From: Christensenella sp. UBA1431
GTDB taxonomy: Bacteria; Bacillota; Clostridia; Christensenellales; UBA1431
Direction of reading: 5' to 3'
Length of the DNA: 20,207 nucleotides
NCBI GenBank assembly: GCA_002329665.1
Contig: DCTV01000031.1
Span: forward strand, 21,535-41,741
Shown piece after piece: positions 6,862 to 14,891 of this stretch. Each line of letters starts with the position of its first letter. The stretch's first letter is position 1. The notes under the pieces are model-generated. The model was given only the letters and a program-made list of their open reading frames with translations, searched no databases and was not told where the DNA came from. Made by a program: the position numbers and the translations under genes.

Positions 6862-8019
6862 CTACAGGTATCTGAAAATTTCTTTGGTTGAGACGATTTC
6901 CGTTAACCTCACGCCAAAGTTGTCGTCGACCACCACGACATCGCCCCGGGCCATGAGCCGCCCGTTCACGACGACGTCGACCGAGTCGCCCGCCTGTTTG
7001 CTTATCTCGAGGATCGAGCCCTGTTCGAGTTCGAGAATCTCTTTGATCAGTTTCTTCGCCCGGCCGATCTCCACCGTGATCTCCAGCGGAACGTCCATGA
7101 TGAGGTCAAGGTTCCCCGTGTCCTCGATAACGCCGCCGCCGCTCCCGTCTTCGTCGAAGCTGACAAGCTTGAGCGGCTGGACGTTCACCTTCTGCAGGGC
7201 CCTTCTGTCGTAGCCGGGTTTCGTAAGGATGTTTTCCTCTTTTGAATCTTCCCCGGGCTCCCGGTCCCCGGCTGTTTCTTCCCCGGCCGGCGCCGCGCCC
7301 GGTTTCTCCTCCCGCGCTGCCGCACCGGCCGCGGCCCCCTCCGGCTCCGGCGCGGTGCCGGCTTTTGCGGGCGCGGTTTCAGGCGGACTCCCGTTAGCGC
7401 TTATTTCCATCGCAAACTTAACGAGTTCCCGCGTGAAGTCCAGCGGCAGGATGGTGCAGAACGTGCTGTCGATCAACCCTTCCACTTTAAAAAGGAAACT
7501 CACGGTCACGATGATCCCATCGAACCCGGCTTCGCTGATCTTTTCCTTCACGTTCTCCACGTCGAAGCGCCTCGGTATGGAGATGCTGATGCTCTTGCCG
7601 AAGAAATCCGCAAGGGCCGTGCTGGAAGACCCCATCATCTGGTTCATGATCTCGCTCAGGGCGCTTACCTGCATTTCGGTGAGCTCCTCTTCGCTTTCGG
7701 AGATGCTTTCCCCCAGCAGCAGGTCCACGATCGTTCGCACGTCCTTCCTTTTCATCACGAGGAGGTTCGATCCGTGGAGCCCTTTGATATATTCGATCTC
7801 GACGCCGTCGGCCGGCTCGAGTTCCTCGATTTCGAATTCGTCCGTTTTGATGCACCGTACAGTAGGTGTCGTGATGCTTACCTTCCTGTTCAGAAGGGTT
7901 GAGACGGTGGTCGCGGCGGCGCCCATGCTTATGTTGAGTATCTCGCCTATCGTATCGATTTCCAGCGTATCCAAAAACATACACCCGCTCGATTCCTGCG
8001 CTTGTTTCCCCGAATTCAT
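6862..8019 (-). CDS. fliY: Flagellar motor switch protein FliY (CheC phosphatase domain fused to FliN domain)
   Basis: FliY is part of the flagellar C-ring in Bacillota and also removes phosphate from CheY-P. With the ATG at 8019 the product has 385 residues. The CheC-like part (about 15-210) carries both phosphatase motifs of the E-x-x-N type: Glu26/Asn29 in IGEILNISMGAA and Glu123/Asn126 in ALSEIMNQMMG. A low-complexity Ala/Glu/Pro/Gly linker (about 211-265) follows, and the C-terminal FliN/SpoA domain is at about 303-385 (MDVPLEITVEIGR...ARGDVVVVDDNFGVRLTEI). I rejected an in-frame extension to 8139 because GGGGTGA precedes the ATG at 8019 and the extra residues look non-coding. The N-terminus lacks an obvious CheY-binding LSQDEIDALL peptide. 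It is the first gene of the operon. Confidence 0.93.
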   Translation of the reverse strand: MNSGKQAQESSGCMFLDTLEIDTIGEILNISMGAAATTVSTLLNRKVSITTPTVRCIKTDEFEIEELEPADGVEIEYIKGLHGSNLLVMKRKDVRTIVDLLLGESISESEEELTEMQVSALSEIMNQMMGSSSTALADFFGKSISISIPRRFDVENVKEKISEAGFDGIIVTVSFLFKVEGLIDSTFCTILPLDFTRELVKFAMEISANGSPPETAPAKAGTAPEPEGAAAGAAAREEKPGAAPAGEETAGDREPGEDSKEENILTKPGYDRRALQKVNVQPLKLVSFDEDGSGGGVIEDTGNLDLIMDVPLEITVEIGRAKKLIKEILELEQGSILEISKQAGDSVDVVVNGRLMARGDVVVVDDNFGVRLTEIVSTKEIFRYL

Positions 8020-8426
8020 TCTGTCACCCCGATCTTTCCAAAGATGCTTTTTAAACCATCGCCCAAACGACGGAAGACCCGCCATAATGCGGCTTCGTTG
8101 CCCGCGACAGGGGCAGTCATGCATCGTAACAAGACGCATTTTTTCTGTTTGTCATGAATCTCAGCTCTGCACCGGTTGCCTGAAGCTTGTTTTGCCGCCT
8201 CCCGAAAAAAAACGGGGCACGGCAACGGGAAACACGAAAGAGCCCGGAGCAATCATGAAAACAAGGCTTTCGTCGTACCGTTTCGGAATGTGAAAACCGT
8301 AAACCCGACGATTCTCCCGATGCATTGACGGCTACGGAGAGCTTGAACGTATAATCAACGCAAATATATACGTTTAAACACCTGTTTTGCCAGTTTTGGG
8401 GAAGCGTTTTCTTATGCTTTTTTTTT
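8020..8426. other. Intergenic stretch upstream of fliY, no gene seen
   Basis: I see no convincing gene here. It must contain the upstream region of the che operon on the minus strand, but no good housekeeping promoter is visible. The best minus-strand candidate is TAAA (8376-8373), 15 bases, then TGATTAT, which only loosely resembles the motility sigma factor consensus (TAAA-N15-GCCGATAA). If it is real, the fliY leader would be about 320 bases long. Small stems are present but none forms a clear terminator or known riboswitch. Confidence 0.4.
8325..8355 (+). promoter_or_regulatory. Possible promoter TTGACG-N19-TATAAT
   Basis: TTGACG (8325-8330) and a perfect TATAAT (8350-8355) are separated by 19 bases, which is longer than optimal. 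It would start a plus-strand transcript near 8362 that runs into a weak stem and a ten-base T tract at 8402-8428. It may be a second, upstream promoter for the kamA leader or fortuitous. Confidence 0.3.
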
Positions 8427-8456
8427 TTGCATTTCGGCGTAAATCTGTTTTATAAT
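8427..8456 (+). promoter_or_regulatory. Promoter of the kamA leader RNA
   Basis: TTGCAT (8427-8432), an 18-base spacer and a perfect TATAAT (8451-8456) give a good housekeeping promoter, preceded by a run of T that could act like an UP element. The predicted start is near 8463. That is about 390 bases before the kamA-like start codon, leaving a long leader. Confidence 0.7.
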
Positions 8457-8462
8457 GAAGTA

Positions 8463-8791
8463 CACGGTCTGTTAAAAGGGTATAAAAAGGCCGGACGAGA
8501 CGGAATGGAGCGGTGCAACATCCCGTCGTGCGCCCGGCCTGTTGATTCGGGAATGCCAGGCATTTCCTTTGGCAGATCAATGCTCTGCCCATAACGTCGG
8601 ACTTCTCCGCCGGCCGTAGCCCGGAGATATAAAGCGACGTTTACAGATATTCAGAAACCGAAATTCATGCTGCAGCCAGTCAAAGCTCGGGTTCACAGTC
8701 ACCACTGAAAGGGATTTGCCTGGCATTCGTCTCGGCTGATTAAAGACCACCCGCAGGCCGAAGCCGCCGTCCGGCTTAAGCAGGCCTTTTT
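8463..8791 (+). ncRNA. Unclassified structured RNA, leader of the kamA-like gene or free small RNA
   Basis: About 330 bases between a promoter and a terminator have no credible ORF but fold consistently by eye. The ends pair: GCCGGACG 8490-8497 with CGTCCGGC 8768-8775. A perfect 12-bp long-range helix joins 8551-8562 (GAATGCCAGGCA) to 8717-8728. Inside it lie a hairpin 8571-8576/8584-8589, a two-part hairpin 8593-8599/8635-8641 plus 8604-8609/8622-8627, and a stem 8650-8654/8705-8709 enclosing 8658-8661/8687-8690. The 5' strand GGCCGG (8489-8494) can instead pair locally with CCGGCC (8534-8539), above a second stem 8499-8503/8523-8527. Because 8768-8775 overlaps the right arm of the terminator, these two pairings could switch termination. 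It does not match RNase P, tmRNA, SRP RNA, T-box, S-box or lysine riboswitch cores as I know them. Confidence 0.6.
8756..8791 (+). terminator. Intrinsic terminator upstream of the kamA-like gene
   Basis: AAGCCG (8761-8766) pairs with CGGCTT (8772-8777) around a five-base loop. GGCC (8756-8759) and GGCC (8783-8786) extend the stem across an asymmetric internal loop, and TTTTT follows at 8787-8791. It ends 63 bases before the next start codon, so transcription must pass it to reach that gene unless another promoter exists; I see none in between. Confidence 0.7.
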
Positions 8792-8821
8792 CGCCAACTG
8801 CCCTGCAGCGGGTTTTTGGCG
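8792..8821 (+). other. Hairpin between terminator and kamA-like start
   Basis: CGCCAA (8792-8797) pairs with TTGGCG (8816-8821), with CCC (8801-8803)/GGG (8810-8812) inside. The same stretch contains CCTGC...GGG, which could pair with CCCGCAGG at 8750-8757, so it may be a second regulatory fold of the leader. Confidence 0.4.
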
Positions 8822-8854
8822 CCTTACATATCCGGACATGAAAGGGGAGCGTAA

Positions 8855-9949
8855 ATGCACAAGCTGAAAGACAACGTGAAGACGATACGGGAACTGTCAG
8901 AATTTATTCCAATGGACGAAAAGACGGTGGAAAAGCTCGAGGACGTGGCCAACAGGTTTCCTATTCTAATACCCAGATACTACCTGTCGCTGATAAACCC
9001 GGACGATATAAACGACCCGATCAGGAGGATGTGCGTACCGTCTCTTGAAGAAAACGAACCCGGCGGCAGCTGGGACACGAGCGGCGAAGGCAAGAACACC
9101 GTTATCGAAGGGCTGCAGCATAAATACCCTCAGACCGTGCTCATCCTCTCCACAAACCGGTGCGCGATGTATTGCCGGCACTGTTTCAGGAAGCGCATGG
9201 TCGGCCTTTCGGACGAGGAGACCGTGAAGAACTTCAAGCGGATGCTGTCCTACATACGGGCGCACGAGGAGATCAACAACGTGCTCGTTTCCGGCGGCGA
9301 CGCCTTCCTCAACAGCAACAGGCTCATCGATTTCTATCTCGGCAGGCTCTCTAACATCCGGCACCTGCATTACATACGCCTGGGCACCCGGGTCCCCGCC
9401 ACCTTTCCGGCCCTGGTAAACGACAACCCCGCATTGCTGGAAATCCTGAAGACCTATTCTTCGAAAAAAACGATTTACGTCTCCACGCAGTTCAACCATC
9501 CGAAGGAACTCACTCCCGAAGCGAAAAAATGCATAAAAAACCTGCTCGACGCCGGGGTTGTGGTGAACAACCAGGCCGTGCTGTTGAAACGCGTGAACGA
9601 CGACCCGGAAACGCTCGCTGCCCTGATGGGCGCCCTGACCGAAGCCGGCGTCATCCCGTATTACGTGTTCCAGTGCAGGCCGGTGAGCCACGTCATGACC
9701 TCGTTCCAGGTCCCGCTGATGCGGGGCTGCGACATCGTGGAACGGGCGAAAACCATGTGCAACGGCTACGCGAAACGCTTCCGTTACGTCATGTCCCACG
9801 AGCGCGGGAAAATCGAAGCGCTCGGGGTGATAAACGAAAAGGAAATGCTCTTCAAGTTCCACCAGGCCAAGGACCCGCGCGACTGCGGCAGGCTCTTTTC
9901 CGTCCGCTTCAAAAAAGACCGGACCTGGCTGGAGCAGGACCTCTTATAA
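8855..9949 (+). CDS. KamA-family radical-SAM aminomutase, substrate uncertain
   Basis: The 364-residue product belongs to the lysine 2,3-aminomutase family, which uses SAM, a [4Fe-4S] cluster and PLP to move an amino group. The cluster cysteines are Cys103, Cys107 and Cys110 (CAMYCRHCFRKR), followed by the family motifs VLVSGGDAFL (143-152), LGTRVPATFP and STQFNHPKELT (210-220). It is shorter than the clostridial lysine enzyme (about 416). The usual PLP-lysine motif DAPGGGGK is absent; SHERGKIEALG (314-324) lies at that place, with Lys319 the likely equivalent. The QCD motif that binds the lysine side chain reads QCR here (Arg275). A true lysine 2,3-aminomutase label is therefore doubtful. 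The ATG at 8855 follows AGGGGAG at five-base spacing. Expression probably depends on the leader RNA at 8463-8791. Confidence 0.85.
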   Translation: MHKLKDNVKTIRELSEFIPMDEKTVEKLEDVANRFPILIPRYYLSLINPDDINDPIRRMCVPSLEENEPGGSWDTSGEGKNTVIEGLQHKYPQTVLILSTNRCAMYCRHCFRKRMVGLSDEETVKNFKRMLSYIRAHEEINNVLVSGGDAFLNSNRLIDFYLGRLSNIRHLHYIRLGTRVPATFPALVNDNPALLEILKTYSSKKTIYVSTQFNHPKELTPEAKKCIKNLLDAGVVVNNQAVLLKRVNDDPETLAALMGALTEAGVIPYYVFQCRPVSHVMTSFQVPLMRGCDIVERAKTMCNGYAKRFRYVMSHERGKIEALGVINEKEMLFKFHQAKDPRDCGRLFSVRFKKDRTWLEQDLL

Positions 9950-10053: not shown

Positions 10054-10398
10054 ATGGAACCTCCGGCCACGCGCGACGAATTCGGCAGGCCTCTGACGAT
10101 AGGCGTATACGGCCTGGTCAACACCGTCACCGGCCGCATGCTCGTAGGCAGCGGCGTCAACCTTCGAAGCCAGTTCAACCGCATGCGGACCGAACTCCGC
10201 CTCGGAGTATACCGCCACCGGCCGCTCCAGGACGACTGGCAGCAGTACGGCGAGGAAGCCTTCCGGTTCGACATACTCGAAGAGTACCTGCCGCAGGAAA
10301 AAGAAGGCTTCTTCGAGATCTTCACGTCGCTCCAGGCGCTCGAGGAAAAATGGGCGCGAAAACTGCAGGGCCGCCCGCAGTACACGCGCATCACCTGA
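10054..10398 (+). CDS. Small GIY-YIG domain protein
   Basis: This 114-residue protein consists almost entirely of a GIY-YIG nuclease fold. GVY (17-19) stands for GIY, then exactly ten residues later LVG (30-32) stands for YIG. Next come VNLRSQFNRMRTELRLG with candidate catalytic Arg38 or Arg43, the family segment LQDDWQQYGEEAFRFDILEEYLP (split here at residues 58-80), and the late acidic residues Glu97/Glu98 in ALEEKW. The second catalytic Tyr is replaced by Leu30, so nuclease activity is uncertain; similar small clostridial homologues also vary at this place, as far as I recall. The start has AAAGGAC at 10038-10044 and its own promoter. The biological role of this small family is unknown to me. 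Confidence 0.82.
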   Translation: MEPPATRDEFGRPLTIGVYGLVNTVTGRMLVGSGVNLRSQFNRMRTELRLGVYRHRPLQDDWQQYGEEAFRFDILEEYLPQEKEGFFEIFTSLQALEEKWARKLQGRPQYTRIT

Positions 10399-10479: not shown

Positions 10480-11169
10480 GTGTCTTCTAAGAACAGTCCC
10501 CGCAGACAAAGAACGCCCGTCCGTCTGCGTTGGGTCCGCGCGGCCCTCAACGCCGGCTGCGCCGCTTTCATCGCGGCCGCCTTCGTCTGGGGCGCGTCGC
10601 TGTACAGGCAGGGAACGCCGCCCGTATCGCCCGCGCCGTCTCCCAAAAAACCGCCGCCTTCTTCCGTACGGCTGACGGAAACGGGCGTCCCTCTGGCGCA
10701 GCCGGACAAACGGGCGTCGCCTTCCGCGAAACCGTCGCCCCCGCCCGTACAGACGCAGGGCGAAACGCCGCCGCCCGCAAGCGATGCATTGGTGGAATGC
10801 GCGCTCAAAATCCCCTCGCTCTCGCTGGAACTGCCCATATCGGAAGTCTGCACCGAGGAGACGCTGCTTCGTTACGTGTGCAAATTCTCGGGACCGCAGC
10901 CCGGTCAGGAAGGAAACTACGTTGTAGCGGGGCATGACTTCCTCAGCGGCGCGCAGTTCGCCCGGCTTCCGGATATGCGGCCGGGGGACAAGGTAATCAT
11001 AAGGAACAGGGAAAACCGGGAATACACGTATACGGTATACGCTTTGCAGTTGGTGACGCCCGAGGACGTTCAGTCGCTGACCGTGCCCGAAAAGGCCAAA
11101 GAAGCCACGCTGCTGACCTGCGCCCGGCAAAACACGATGCGGCTGCTCGTGCGCTGCCGCCTCGACTAA
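10480..11169 (+). CDS. Sortase, membrane-anchored transpeptidase
   Basis: Sortases cut a C-terminal sorting signal and attach the protein to the cell wall or to a pilin. The 229-residue product starts with a basic stretch, then one membrane segment (about 20-41), a Pro/Ser/Lys-rich stalk (about 46-101) and the sortase barrel. The catalytic triad is visible: His152 in NYVVAGHDF, Cys214 in ATLLTCARQ and probably Arg221 in NTMRLLVR. The GTG at 10480 has AGAGG at 10467-10471 with eight-base spacing; a GTG nine bases earlier overlaps that SD and is unlikely. No LPxTG-type substrate or pilin gene is in the window, so it is an orphan here and its class cannot be fixed by eye. It ends well before a bidirectional terminator. 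Confidence 0.88.
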   Translation: MSSKNSPRRQRTPVRLRWVRAALNAGCAAFIAAAFVWGASLYRQGTPPVSPAPSPKKPPPSSVRLTETGVPLAQPDKRASPSAKPSPPPVQTQGETPPPASDALVECALKIPSLSLELPISEVCTEETLLRYVCKFSGPQPGQEGNYVVAGHDFLSGAQFARLPDMRPGDKVIIRNRENREYTYTVYALQLVTPEDVQSLTVPEKAKEATLLTCARQNTMRLLVRCRLD

Positions 11170-11367
11170 ATCGGAGCAGGCTTCGCTTCGCTCATAATCC
11201 CTTTGCGCTTCGCGCTCCGGGGGTTTATTCGAACCGCTCCCTCGTCGAAGCTTGCTCCTCCTTTTCCCCCAAAGCTACGCTTTGCGGGGAAGAGCTCGGG
11301 TTAGGTTTCGCAGGCAGCGGGCTTTGCCGGGGCAGGCCGCGCCGGAAACGCGTTTCAATCGACGGAG
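11170..11367. other. Hairpin-rich spacer between sortase gene and terminator
   Basis: I see no gene here. It is rich in GCTTCGC/GCGAAGC and GGAGC/GCTCC words that can pair with each other, including GGAGC soon after the sortase stop with GCTCC about 40 bases later, and it contains the palindrome at 11264-11291. The composition resembles the repeat-rich spacer at 14113-14890 more than the coding regions. Confidence 0.5.
11264..11291. repeat. Palindrome TTCCCC-n-AAAGC-TAC-GCTTT-nn-GGGGAA
   Basis: TTCCCC (11264-11269) and AAAGC (11271-11275) pair with GCTTT (11279-11283) and GGGGAA (11286-11291) around a three-base loop. A near copy with the same arms is at 14664-14694, so this is a dispersed palindromic element of REP type, not a local accident. 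Confidence 0.6.
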
Positions 11368-11401
11368 AAAACCCTCGCAAACAAAGTTTGCGAGGGTTTT
11401 T
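11368..11401. terminator. Bidirectional intrinsic terminator
   Basis: A perfect 15-bp stem (AAAACCCTCGCAAAC 11368-11382 with 11386-11400) and an AAA loop end in TTTTT on the plus strand and begin with AAAA, so T's also follow on the minus strand. It sits between the convergent sortase and exonuclease III genes and can serve both. Confidence 0.9.
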
Positions 11402-11458
11402 GGCTCGGTGATTCATCGCGGCCGGCCTGGTCCCATATCCACCGGCGCACATAGCGAA

Positions 11459-12214
11459 TCAGTCCAGGTCGAGGCCCACGGGGCAATGGTCGGAACCGTA
11501 TATGTCCGAATGGATGACGGCGTCTGAAACGCCGTCCCAAAGCCTGTTTGAGACCAGGAAGTAGTCGATGCGCCAGCCCACGTTCCGCTCGCGCGCCTTG
11601 AAACGGTAGGTCCACCAGGAATACGCGTCCCTGCGCCCCGGGTACATCTTCCTGAACGTATCGGTGAACCCGCTTTCGACCAACCGCGTGAAGCCTTCGC
11701 GCTCCTCGTCGGTGAATCCCGGGTTCGTCCGGTTGGCCTTAGGATTCTTGATGTCCATCTCCGTGTGGGCCACGTTCATGTCCCCGCAAACGACCACGGG
11801 CTTTTTCGCGTCGAGCGAACATATGTACTCCCGGAAGGCTTCGTCCCAGCGCATCCGGTACTCCAGCCTCACCAGCCCCGGCTGCGCGTTGGGCACATAG
11901 GCGTTGACCAGATAAAAGCCACCGTATTCCAGCGTAATGACGCGCCCCTCCCGGTCATACTCGGCGATTCCGATGCCCGGCGACGCCGAAAGCGGCTCTT
12001 CGCGCGCGAACACGGCCGTCCCCGAATACCCTTTGCGCTCCGCGTAGTTCCAGGTCTGCGTGTATCCGGGCAGGTCGAGGTCTATTTGTCCGGCCTGCAG
12101 CTTCGTCTCCTGAACGCAGAAAAAATCCGCGTCCAGTTTATTGAATTGATCCATAAACCCTTTGTTGAGACAGGCCCTGAGCCCGTTGACGTTCCATGAT
12201 ACGAACCGGATAAT
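11459..12214 (-). CDS. xth: Exodeoxyribonuclease III / AP endonuclease
   Basis: This DNA repair enzyme cleaves at abasic sites and degrades 3' ends. The 251 residues counted from the ATT at 12214 match the ExoIII length and carry its active site: Asn8 (SWNVNGLRA), Glu36 (CVQETKL), Tyr106 (NAYVPNAQ), Asp145 and Asn147 (GDMNVAH), Asp217 (WRIDYFLVS) and Asp242-His243 (GSDHCPVG). The start is odd. The conserved N-terminus begins at codons ATT-ATC-CGG, right after the SD GGGGGGAGG, with no ATG, GTG or TTG in frame there. ATGs further up at 12289 and 12313 lie in or before the probable -10 box and would add unrelated residues. Initiation at AUU or AUC is the simplest reading. The gene is divergent from pyrG. 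Confidence 0.92.
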   Translation of the reverse strand: MIRFVSWNVNGLRACLNKGFMDQFNKLDADFFCVQETKLQAGQIDLDLPGYTQTWNYAERKGYSGTAVFAREEPLSASPGIGIAEYDREGRVITLEYGGFYLVNAYVPNAQPGLVRLEYRMRWDEAFREYICSLDAKKPVVVCGDMNVAHTEMDIKNPKANRTNPGFTDEEREGFTRLVESGFTDTFRKMYPGRRDAYSWWTYRFKARERNVGWRIDYFLVSNRLWDGVSDAVIHSDIYGSDHCPVGLDLD

Positions 12215-14189: not shown

Positions 14190-14205
14190 CGCAGCATACG
14201 GCCGT

Positions 14206-14231
14206 TTTCTCGACATTTTTCGGGAAATTCC
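14206..14231 (+). repeat. Degenerate copy of the TTTCTCGGGAAA repeat
   Basis: It reads TTCTCGACATTTTTCGGGAAA and then TTCCT. It differs from the better copies by a few bases (GACATTTTTC against GATATTTCTC) and keeps the GGGAAATTCC tail. Confidence 0.5.
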
Positions 14232-14295
14232 TCCGCTGTTCGCCGGGCCCATTGCCCGCCCCGCATCGCCGCCCCTTCGCAAAAGGAGGCTCCCT

Positions 14296-14499
14296 ATGGG
14301 CCGAAAAACCGCACCGGCCGTTCAAAAATCGGGAAGCCCTATTCCCGTACCGGCGGCGCATGCGAAAGGGGCCGCAAGCCCGCGCACGGTTGCGACCCCT
14401 TTCGATATTTCTCGGGAAATTCCCCCGGCAATCTGTCCCCCGGTATACTATTTCCCAAATCCGCGCGCGCCCGCGAATTTCAGGCGAATGCCCGGCTGA
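14296..14499 (+). CDS. Doubtful small ORF, 67 residues
   Basis: The only reason to list it is an ideal ribosome binding site: AAAAGGAGG at 14281-14289, six bases before an ATG. The product would be Pro/Ala-rich and basic at the start (MGRKTAPAVQKSG), with no membrane segment or known domain. It includes a translated copy of the local repeat (FDISREIP) and ends in NFRRMPG. I recognise no family. It lies inside the repeat-rich spacer and may be chance. Confidence 0.15.
   Translation: MGRKTAPAVQKSGSPIPVPAAHAKGAASPRTVATPFDISREIPPAICPPVYYFPNPRAPANFRRMPG
14393..14424 (+). repeat. Copy of the TTTCTCGGGAAA repeat
   Basis: CGACCCCTTTCGATATTTCT continues with CGGGAAATTCCC. The centre ATTTC-TCGG-GAAAT can form a five-bp hairpin. 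It differs from the two best copies only in the bases between CGACC and TTCGAT. Confidence 0.65.
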
Positions 14500-14607
14500 C
14501 GCCAATACTCCGGCCCATGCCCTATCAAACCGGGAAATACCTTGCGCGCGGCTGCAAACGTCGTTGTCGATCAAGGGCCCTTCTTTGGCAATGTCCCCAA
14601 AATCAGG

Positions 14608-14629
14608 CGACCGCATTCGATATTTCTCG
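14608..14629 (+). repeat. Copy of the TTTCTCGGGAAA repeat, truncated tail
   Basis: These 22 bases, from CGACCGCATTCG to TTTCTCG, are identical to 14778-14799. After TCG the sequence diverges (CCTCGTCGG), so the GGGAAAT arm is lost in this copy. Confidence 0.75.
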
Positions 14630-14663
14630 CCTCGTCGGAGCAAACTTCGCCCCGCTACGTTGC

Positions 14664-14694
14664 TTCCCCGCAAAGCCTGCGGCTTCGCGGGGAA
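14664..14694. repeat. Palindrome related to 11264-11291
   Basis: TTCCCCGC (14664-14671) and AAGCC (14673-14677) pair with GGCTT (14681-14685) and GCGGGGAA (14687-14694) around a TGC loop, with one mismatch. Arms and loop size match the palindrome at 11264-11291, 3.4 kb away. Confidence 0.65.
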
Positions 14695-14777
14695 TTACCC
14701 GGGAAGGGTTTGGTGGAATTTTCTCGGGAAAAGCTTCGCGGGCAGTGCTTCAAAGCGTACCAAACCCAGACTCTTTA

Positions 14778-14807
14778 CGACCGCATTCGATATTTCTCGG
14801 GAAATCC
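14778..14807 (+). repeat. Copy of the TTTCTCGGGAAA repeat
   Basis: The first 22 bases are identical to 14608-14629, exactly 170 bases away, and here the full GGGAAATCCC tail is kept. Confidence 0.75.
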
Positions 14808-14891
14808 CGGTACGGTTCCATGCATTTCACCAGCGTAAGCCTCACATTTTCGTCCGGACCTGCGCGATTCCCCAACATCTTTGCTGATGGC

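Follow-up and report, generated by a model that had tools for sequence, protein, structure and literature searches.

The two ends of 6S RNA, a single RNA, are paired with each other, and the lysine riboswitch (RF00168) is organized around a five-helix junction. Structured RNAs are reported to be found preferentially in long, G+C-rich intergenic regions (PMC8632094), and a tandem of Na+-I and c-di-AMP riboswitches is reported to be associated with ablA in Dehalobacter sp. CF (PMC9337991). Here we analyzed a 20,207-nucleotide stretch of DNA (the window; contig C32) from the draft genome of Christensenella sp. UBA1431 (1.53 Mb, 74.7% complete), in which a gap of approximately 835 bases separates fliY on the minus strand from a KamA-family gene (kamA) on the plus strand. 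An earlier note on this DNA had described an unclassified, highly structured leader RNA with a built-in terminator ahead of kamA. Folding and Rfam analysis supported a structured, unclassified plus-strand leader with a terminator candidate, and our preferred reading, to which we give a probability of about 0.4, is that region 8463-8791 acts in cis as a transcription attenuator of kamA. The features of the locus are as follows.

8325-8355, plus strand: possible second promoter, TTGACG-19-TATAAT, from the letters; spacer longer than usual
8401-8428, plus strand: weak terminator-like hairpin, 8401-8407 paired with 8414-8420, leading into 11 T (8418-8428); -5.9 kcal/mol
8427-8456, plus strand: promoter candidate, TTGCAT-18-TATAAT, from the letters; weak -35
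8463-8791, plus strand: predicted structured RNA reaching from the inferred start as far as the U-tract of the terminator (about 329 nt), by folding against shuffles
8484-8541, minus strand: stronger terminator candidate, stems of 10 bp and 9 bp followed by UUUUU; -36.0 kcal/mol, z -6.49
8488-8540, plus strand: predicted 5' hairpin, outer stem 8488-8494/8534-8540 and inner stem 8499-8503/8523-8527
8551-8728, plus strand: predicted core domain closed by a perfect 12-bp helix, with inner hairpins at 8571-8589 and 8593-8641
8755-8791, plus strand: intrinsic-terminator candidate, 8755-8766 paired with 8772-8777, 8781 and 8783-8787, then TTTTT at 8787-8791, from the forced-terminator structure
8792-8821, plus strand: short predicted hairpin CGCCAA/UUGGCG between the terminator and kamA
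8843-8849, plus strand: candidate ribosome-binding site of kamA, AGGGGAG, from the letters
8855-9949, plus strand: KamA-family radical SAM protein of 364 aa, from TIGR00238, alignment with 2a5h and CxxxCxxC

The intergenic nature of the region was clear. The fliY ORF runs from 8139 on the minus strand, with a likelier start near 8018 behind GGGGTGA. The claim of about 330 bases free of a credible ORF held, as the plus strand of 8400-8854 contained no ORF of at least 60 aa except kamA; the longest minus-strand ORF there was 72 aa. A decayed gene as the source of the leader was rejected: six of the eight short ORFs listed in the leader region were scanned and had no Pfam match up to E 1. Among 20 pieces of the genome (303,573 bases), the leader was one of 14 stretches of at least 200 bases that lacked a stop-to-stop frame of 100 codons on either strand, and there it was cut by the end of a piece. 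G+C content was 54.7% in the RNA part, 46.4% in the gap to its left and 60.2% in the window, and the leader was thus G+C-rich solely relative to the adjoining gap and not to the whole window. Directly downstream of kamA, positions 10054-10398 encode a small protein that scores 34.3 bits, below the threshold of 56.05, against a group I intron endonuclease model, which we take to be of the GIY-YIG type. Elsewhere in the window, in the gene-poor stretch 14198-14808, a 34-nt unit around CGATATTTCTCGGGAAATTCC occurs four times, with 65-100% identity to the reference copy and spacings of 192, 215 and 170. Look-alike G+C-rich intergenic hairpins of the AAAGC..GCTTTGCGGGG type were seen by eye at about 11265-11300 and 14670-14700 of the window and at about 10805-10840 of another stretch of the same genome (L138).

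The transcription signals were of uneven quality. An RNA start at about 8463 would follow from the promoter candidate at 8427-8456, which the earlier note had called good; this applied to its perfect -10 box (8451-8456), whereas its -35 box TTGCAT matched at three of six positions, and the candidate was missed by our consensus scan because of this weak box and the 18-nt spacer. The same scans listed no promoter between 8792 and kamA and none on the minus strand between 8500 and 8950 (nearest, 8990-8963). Perfect TATAAT boxes occurred in the fliY-kamA gap at 8350-8355 and 8451-8456 only, both on the plus strand, and the window contained seven on both strands versus 1.33 expected. The hairpin at 8401-8428 overlaps the -35 box of the promoter candidate at 8427-8456; it was absent from the pattern-scan list and also from the fold cut short at 8416. 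At the other end, the intrinsic terminator proposed before kamA was present as a candidate, an interrupted hairpin (8755-8787), and 8753-8791 alone folded to -14.4 kcal/mol, but taken alone it did not exceed chance (z -1.43, 8 of 100 shuffles as stable). The pattern scan of 7800-9200 found one terminator-like site versus 1.7 expected. In the folds, the minus-strand version of the left hairpin was clearly superior, resembling a textbook terminator (8484-8541) with one G.U pair per stem in place of an A.C mismatch on the plus strand. No obvious minus-strand transcript was seen for it to end.

Fold analysis revealed that the strongly folded region is real. The RNA 8463-8791 reached -131.6 kcal/mol (z -4.99, 0 of 100 shuffles as stable) on the plus strand and z -4.28 (1 of 100) on the minus strand, so that the region as a whole folds nearly equally on both strands (-131.6 and -131.7); a 313-nt version gave z -4.59, again with 0 of 100 shuffles as stable. 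Most of the excess stability of the RNA is carried by its 178-nt core 8551-8728, with z -6.14 on the plus strand and -3.54 on the minus strand, and the 3' part 8729-8791 was ordinary (z 0.05). The long-range helix previously noted at 8551-8562/8717-8728 was recovered with pair probabilities of 0.98-1.0. A perfect 12-bp helix spanning at least 100 nt occurred in none of 400 shuffles and in none of 168 sampled 329-nt windows of the same genome, with a maximum of 11 in both cases. The pairing of the two ends was also confirmed, as 10 bp (8488-8497/8768-8777) rather than the reported 8490-8497/8768-8775. However, the stability of the leader is not unique within the genome: comparably strong folds were found at 11201-11500 (z -5.48 and -5.26, the plus strand being more stable by z) and in the L138 stretch (z -5.47).

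The two proposed exclusive partners of the 5' strand GGCCGG both exist. Arms 8488-8494 and 8534-8540 form the 5' hairpin when paired with each other, and have 8768-8777 and 8753-8760, in the two arms of the terminator region, as alternative partners, but an equivalent layout of two hairpins exchanging strands appeared in 48 of 240 shuffles by the criterion used. The layout is not beyond chance, and a switch is therefore possible, not more. With the terminator forced, the fold was -125.3 kcal/mol versus -131.6 for the forced alternative, which is 6.3 kcal/mol more stable at equilibrium. In prefix folding, the 5' hairpin had a probability of 0.99-1.0 until base 8783 and the terminator core of 0.99-1.0 for prefixes ending at 8777-8783, whereas from 8786 on the alternative beat both. 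Since the terminator forms before its competitor in these calculations, the alternative would win only given time or after release. Thus, of the suggested control of read-through into kamA, the more stable alternative state stood, while the order of folding and the shuffles weakened it, and the switch appears plausible in the fold model. From these sequence elements and computed folds, we infer transcription, its start and termination, switching and a possible ligand as follows. RNA polymerase would start near 8463; folding would begin with the 5' hairpin and with the core that the 12-bp helix closes; hairpin 8755-8787 would then form and halt transcription at 8787-8791. Some factor, perhaps a metabolite or a protein bound to the core, may prevent this by letting the arms of the 5' hairpin capture both terminator arms, and this would give read-through into kamA.

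Database searches placed the leader in no known family. The earlier note could not match it to a riboswitch class, and the Rfam scan that it recommended agreed, giving no match in the window at the gathering score of the Rfam 15 covariance models and nothing credible in 8300-8900 up to E 10. The three sub-threshold matches in that region were HOTTIP_3, sbrA (15.1 of 45 bits) and SAH (14.9 of 37 bits); 6S (RF00013), SRP and RNase P RNAs were not among them. HOTTIP_3, presumably from its name a piece of a human lncRNA, had an E of 0.0015 but 19.1 of 50 bits, aligned without base pairs and was taken as chance. No tRNA or tmRNA was found in the window. A 6S match of 57.1 bits lies on a different contig of the genome (C61:9583-9759). 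RF01854, RF00169 (SRP RNA) and RF00010 (RNase P type A) had no match in this 75% complete assembly.

Homologue searches used genome draws that are overlapping samples of larger groups. In blastn against 61 relatives, among which this genome is the sole member of its family, we recovered its own sequence plus one 22-base match (E 4.3e-4), not a credible homologue. In blastn against 396 genomes of the order, with no more than two candidates scored in each, short matches of 22-39 bases turned up in 11 genomes besides its own (E 4e-4 to 0.009 on the scale of one genome), none credible and all taken as chance because 396 genomes were searched; in 338 genomes of the phylum (E up to 0.001), only its own was found. 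A one-sequence model (R1, the sequence entered twice) likewise returned only its own up to E 0.1 in 396 genomes of the order and 391 of the class; being built from one sequence, it reaches only fairly close relatives, and the filters of the model search are stricter once more than 40 genomes are searched. Among 120 loci from outside this genome's own three (109 fetched for KamA), nhmmer found nothing up to E 1 and the best blastn E of a KamA locus was 0.60. R1 on 89 KamA and other sources, including 76 of 80 genome-contig KamA loci and 10 of 29 KamA loci of other genomes, gave at best 10.9 bits (E 2.4) besides the window. The leader had no match in a distant blastn against phage and plasmid records, one 23-base exact stretch of it was absent from viral contigs, and KamA was represented in viral contigs by one 35% relative only. 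A mobile element was rejected, the leader being single-copy in the assembly and without a phage or plasmid match. A literature search found nothing on Christensenellales with noncoding RNA. By sequence comparison, the leader RNA appears to be an orphan, one sequence with no credible relative in the genomes sampled, and hence cannot yet define a class.

The gene behind the leader belongs to a large subfamily. Its product scored 237.6 bits against TIGR00238 (KamA family radical SAM; cut-off, 199.2) and fell well below the cut-offs of the equivalog models for glutamate (262.9 of 650), lysine (TIGR03820; 257 of 525.4) and arginine (223.2 of 600) aminomutases. Instead of Asp at chain position 293 of lysine 2,3-aminomutase (2a5h), a residue that we take to bind the lysine side chain, it has Arg275. 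Of 7999 candidates scored, at least 5414 proteins belonged to the subfamily (E up to 1e-50), and in the best 120 of these (P0001 being nearly the window's own) both the Arg and the three Cys of CxxxCxxC were kept in 120 of 120. A stretch S-x-x-x-GK-x-E was also present in all of these best 120. P0001 was 99% identical to the product and P0002-P0004 63-70%, the DNA upstream of P0002, P0003 and P0004 being left out of the leader comparisons. We found nothing in support of the earlier idea that the leader senses the substrate or product of the aminomutase; Arg in place of Asp293 makes lysine unlikely, and the idea would probably need another compound.

To see where similar layouts occur, kamA upstream regions were compared. 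A crude scan detected a terminator-like hairpin within 200 bases upstream of kamA in 12 of 90 KamA loci, a set in which one locus is probably present twice (L027, L095) and some have little upstream sequence. Six of the 12 upstream regions inspected, all titled Oscillospiraceae or Oscillibacter, shared a flank like ATCAAAAYCGTT followed by a hairpin, and the other six (L068, L048, L067, L077, L103 and L097) were without this combination. The six lie before kamA as follows.

L022, 1897-1964: flank and terminator hairpin
L039, 1647-1713: flank and terminator hairpin
L045, 1818-1881: flank and terminator hairpin
L050, 1816-1877: flank and terminator hairpin
L066, 1894-1962: flank and terminator hairpin
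L069, 1895-1963: flank and terminator hairpin

Their 12-pair helix was 93.1% paired over the six sequences. Changes on both sides affected two pairs, an unremarkable number (135 of 500), and toward the inner end two pairs failed, in two and three sequences. Its covariation score of 0.356 versus 0.220 in shuffles (5 of 500 as high) comes from six related sequences picked after the scan had been seen and is thus exploratory. A model of this hairpin (R2) matched these six among 87 sources at E below 1e-10, with the next match at E 0.17; neither the window (up to E 5) nor the other Oscillospiraceae-titled loci L046, L067 and L073 were found. In L045 and L050 an FMN riboswitch lies upstream on the opposite strand, and the terminator is therefore most likely in kamA's own leader. 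The flank with its partly covarying hairpin is a candidate attenuator in its own right. By analogy, these loci lend mild support to our reading, as the leader-terminator layout appears to recur, in a different RNA, among other members of the subfamily. Rfam analysis of 60 of the 90 KamA loci gave seven matches and no riboswitch in a sense-strand kamA leader; in L006 a guanidine-I riboswitch lies about 1 kb upstream of kamA with an ORF in between. The genes next to kamA were viewed by eye in the ORF lists of 16 loci.

How these observations should be read depends on their weight for several explanations. Attenuation is favored by the core, which folds distinctly better on the plus strand, by the plus orientation of both TATAAT boxes of the gap, and by the lack of a scan-listed promoter between 8792 and kamA, although the scans also miss 8427-8456. 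It is further favored by the energy difference of the two states with the terminator core ahead of its competitor, and by the precedents of the six unrelated Oscillospiraceae leaders and the ablA tandem riboswitch (PMC9337991). Against it stand the frequency of the layout in shuffles, the ordinary plus-strand terminator and the lack of a credible match upstream of KamA relatives. The equilibrium fold, which pairs 5' with 3' parts as a free small RNA might, and the better terminator on the minus strand also count against it. The main rival, doubtful in our view, is such a free RNA, about 329 nt long and equipped with a promoter and a terminator of its own, which would act in trans, have the equilibrium fold as its mature form and leave kamA as merely the next gene. 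A unit bounded by terminator-like sites (8401-8428 and 8755-8791), a final fold closed end to end and the absence of the RNA from every KamA relative examined fit this explanation, but the assembly contains it only once, the sampled genomes yielded no credible homologue, and a promoter of kamA's own is missing from the consensus-scan lists.

It is unlikely that the region is non-regulatory and its folds are by-products, whether of a long stretch between genes that contains inverted repeats and terminators or of a mobile element in decay. The equally strong folds elsewhere (11201, z -5.48; L138, -5.47) and the near-equality of the strands agree with this, and the short perfect 9-bp terminal repeats AAAAAGGCC/GGCCTTTTT at the ends of the region would suit an element; however, the core is better on the plus strand, the copy is single and no target duplication was seen by eye at the ends. 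Improbable is a working RNA on the minus strand that ends at terminator 8541-8484, antisense to the kamA leader or guarding against antisense transcription into the fliY side. The strength of its hairpin (-36.0 kcal/mol, z -6.49) and the G.U pairs in place of A.C argue for it, and the better plus-strand core and the lack of a listed minus promoter in 8500-8950 argue against it, although such scans miss real promoters. Very improbable, finally, is an undescribed riboswitch class with one representative, in which the 178-nt core would sense a non-lysine metabolite tied to the KamA-type aminomutase and free the terminator by double strand exchange between the 5' hairpin and the terminator hairpin. 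If the attenuator reading is true, the ligand would give a clue to what a large KamA subfamily acts on, a subfamily in which the key residue speaks against lysine; if the RNA is free, it would be a structured RNA seen in one lineage only.

Compared with known systems, the leader resembles 6S RNA (RF00013) in its paired ends, whereas the 6S match of this genome lies elsewhere (C61:9583-9759) and none was listed for the leader. Like the lysine riboswitch, it has a junction of several helices with a long closing stem and, by gene name, a link to lysine, but it has no covariance-model match to that riboswitch up to E 10. The Oscillospiraceae loci (L022, L039, L045, L050, L066 and L069) are without sequence or model similarity to it, although in them, too, a leader terminator closely precedes a kamA gene that belongs to the same subfamily. 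Finally, the ablA leader differs in that the window leader has no credible Rfam match up to E 10 and its gene is, by the key residue, not a lysine 2,3-aminomutase; what the two have in common is a structured leader with terminators before a gene of the KamA superfamily, with control of read-through in the ablA case (PMC9337991).
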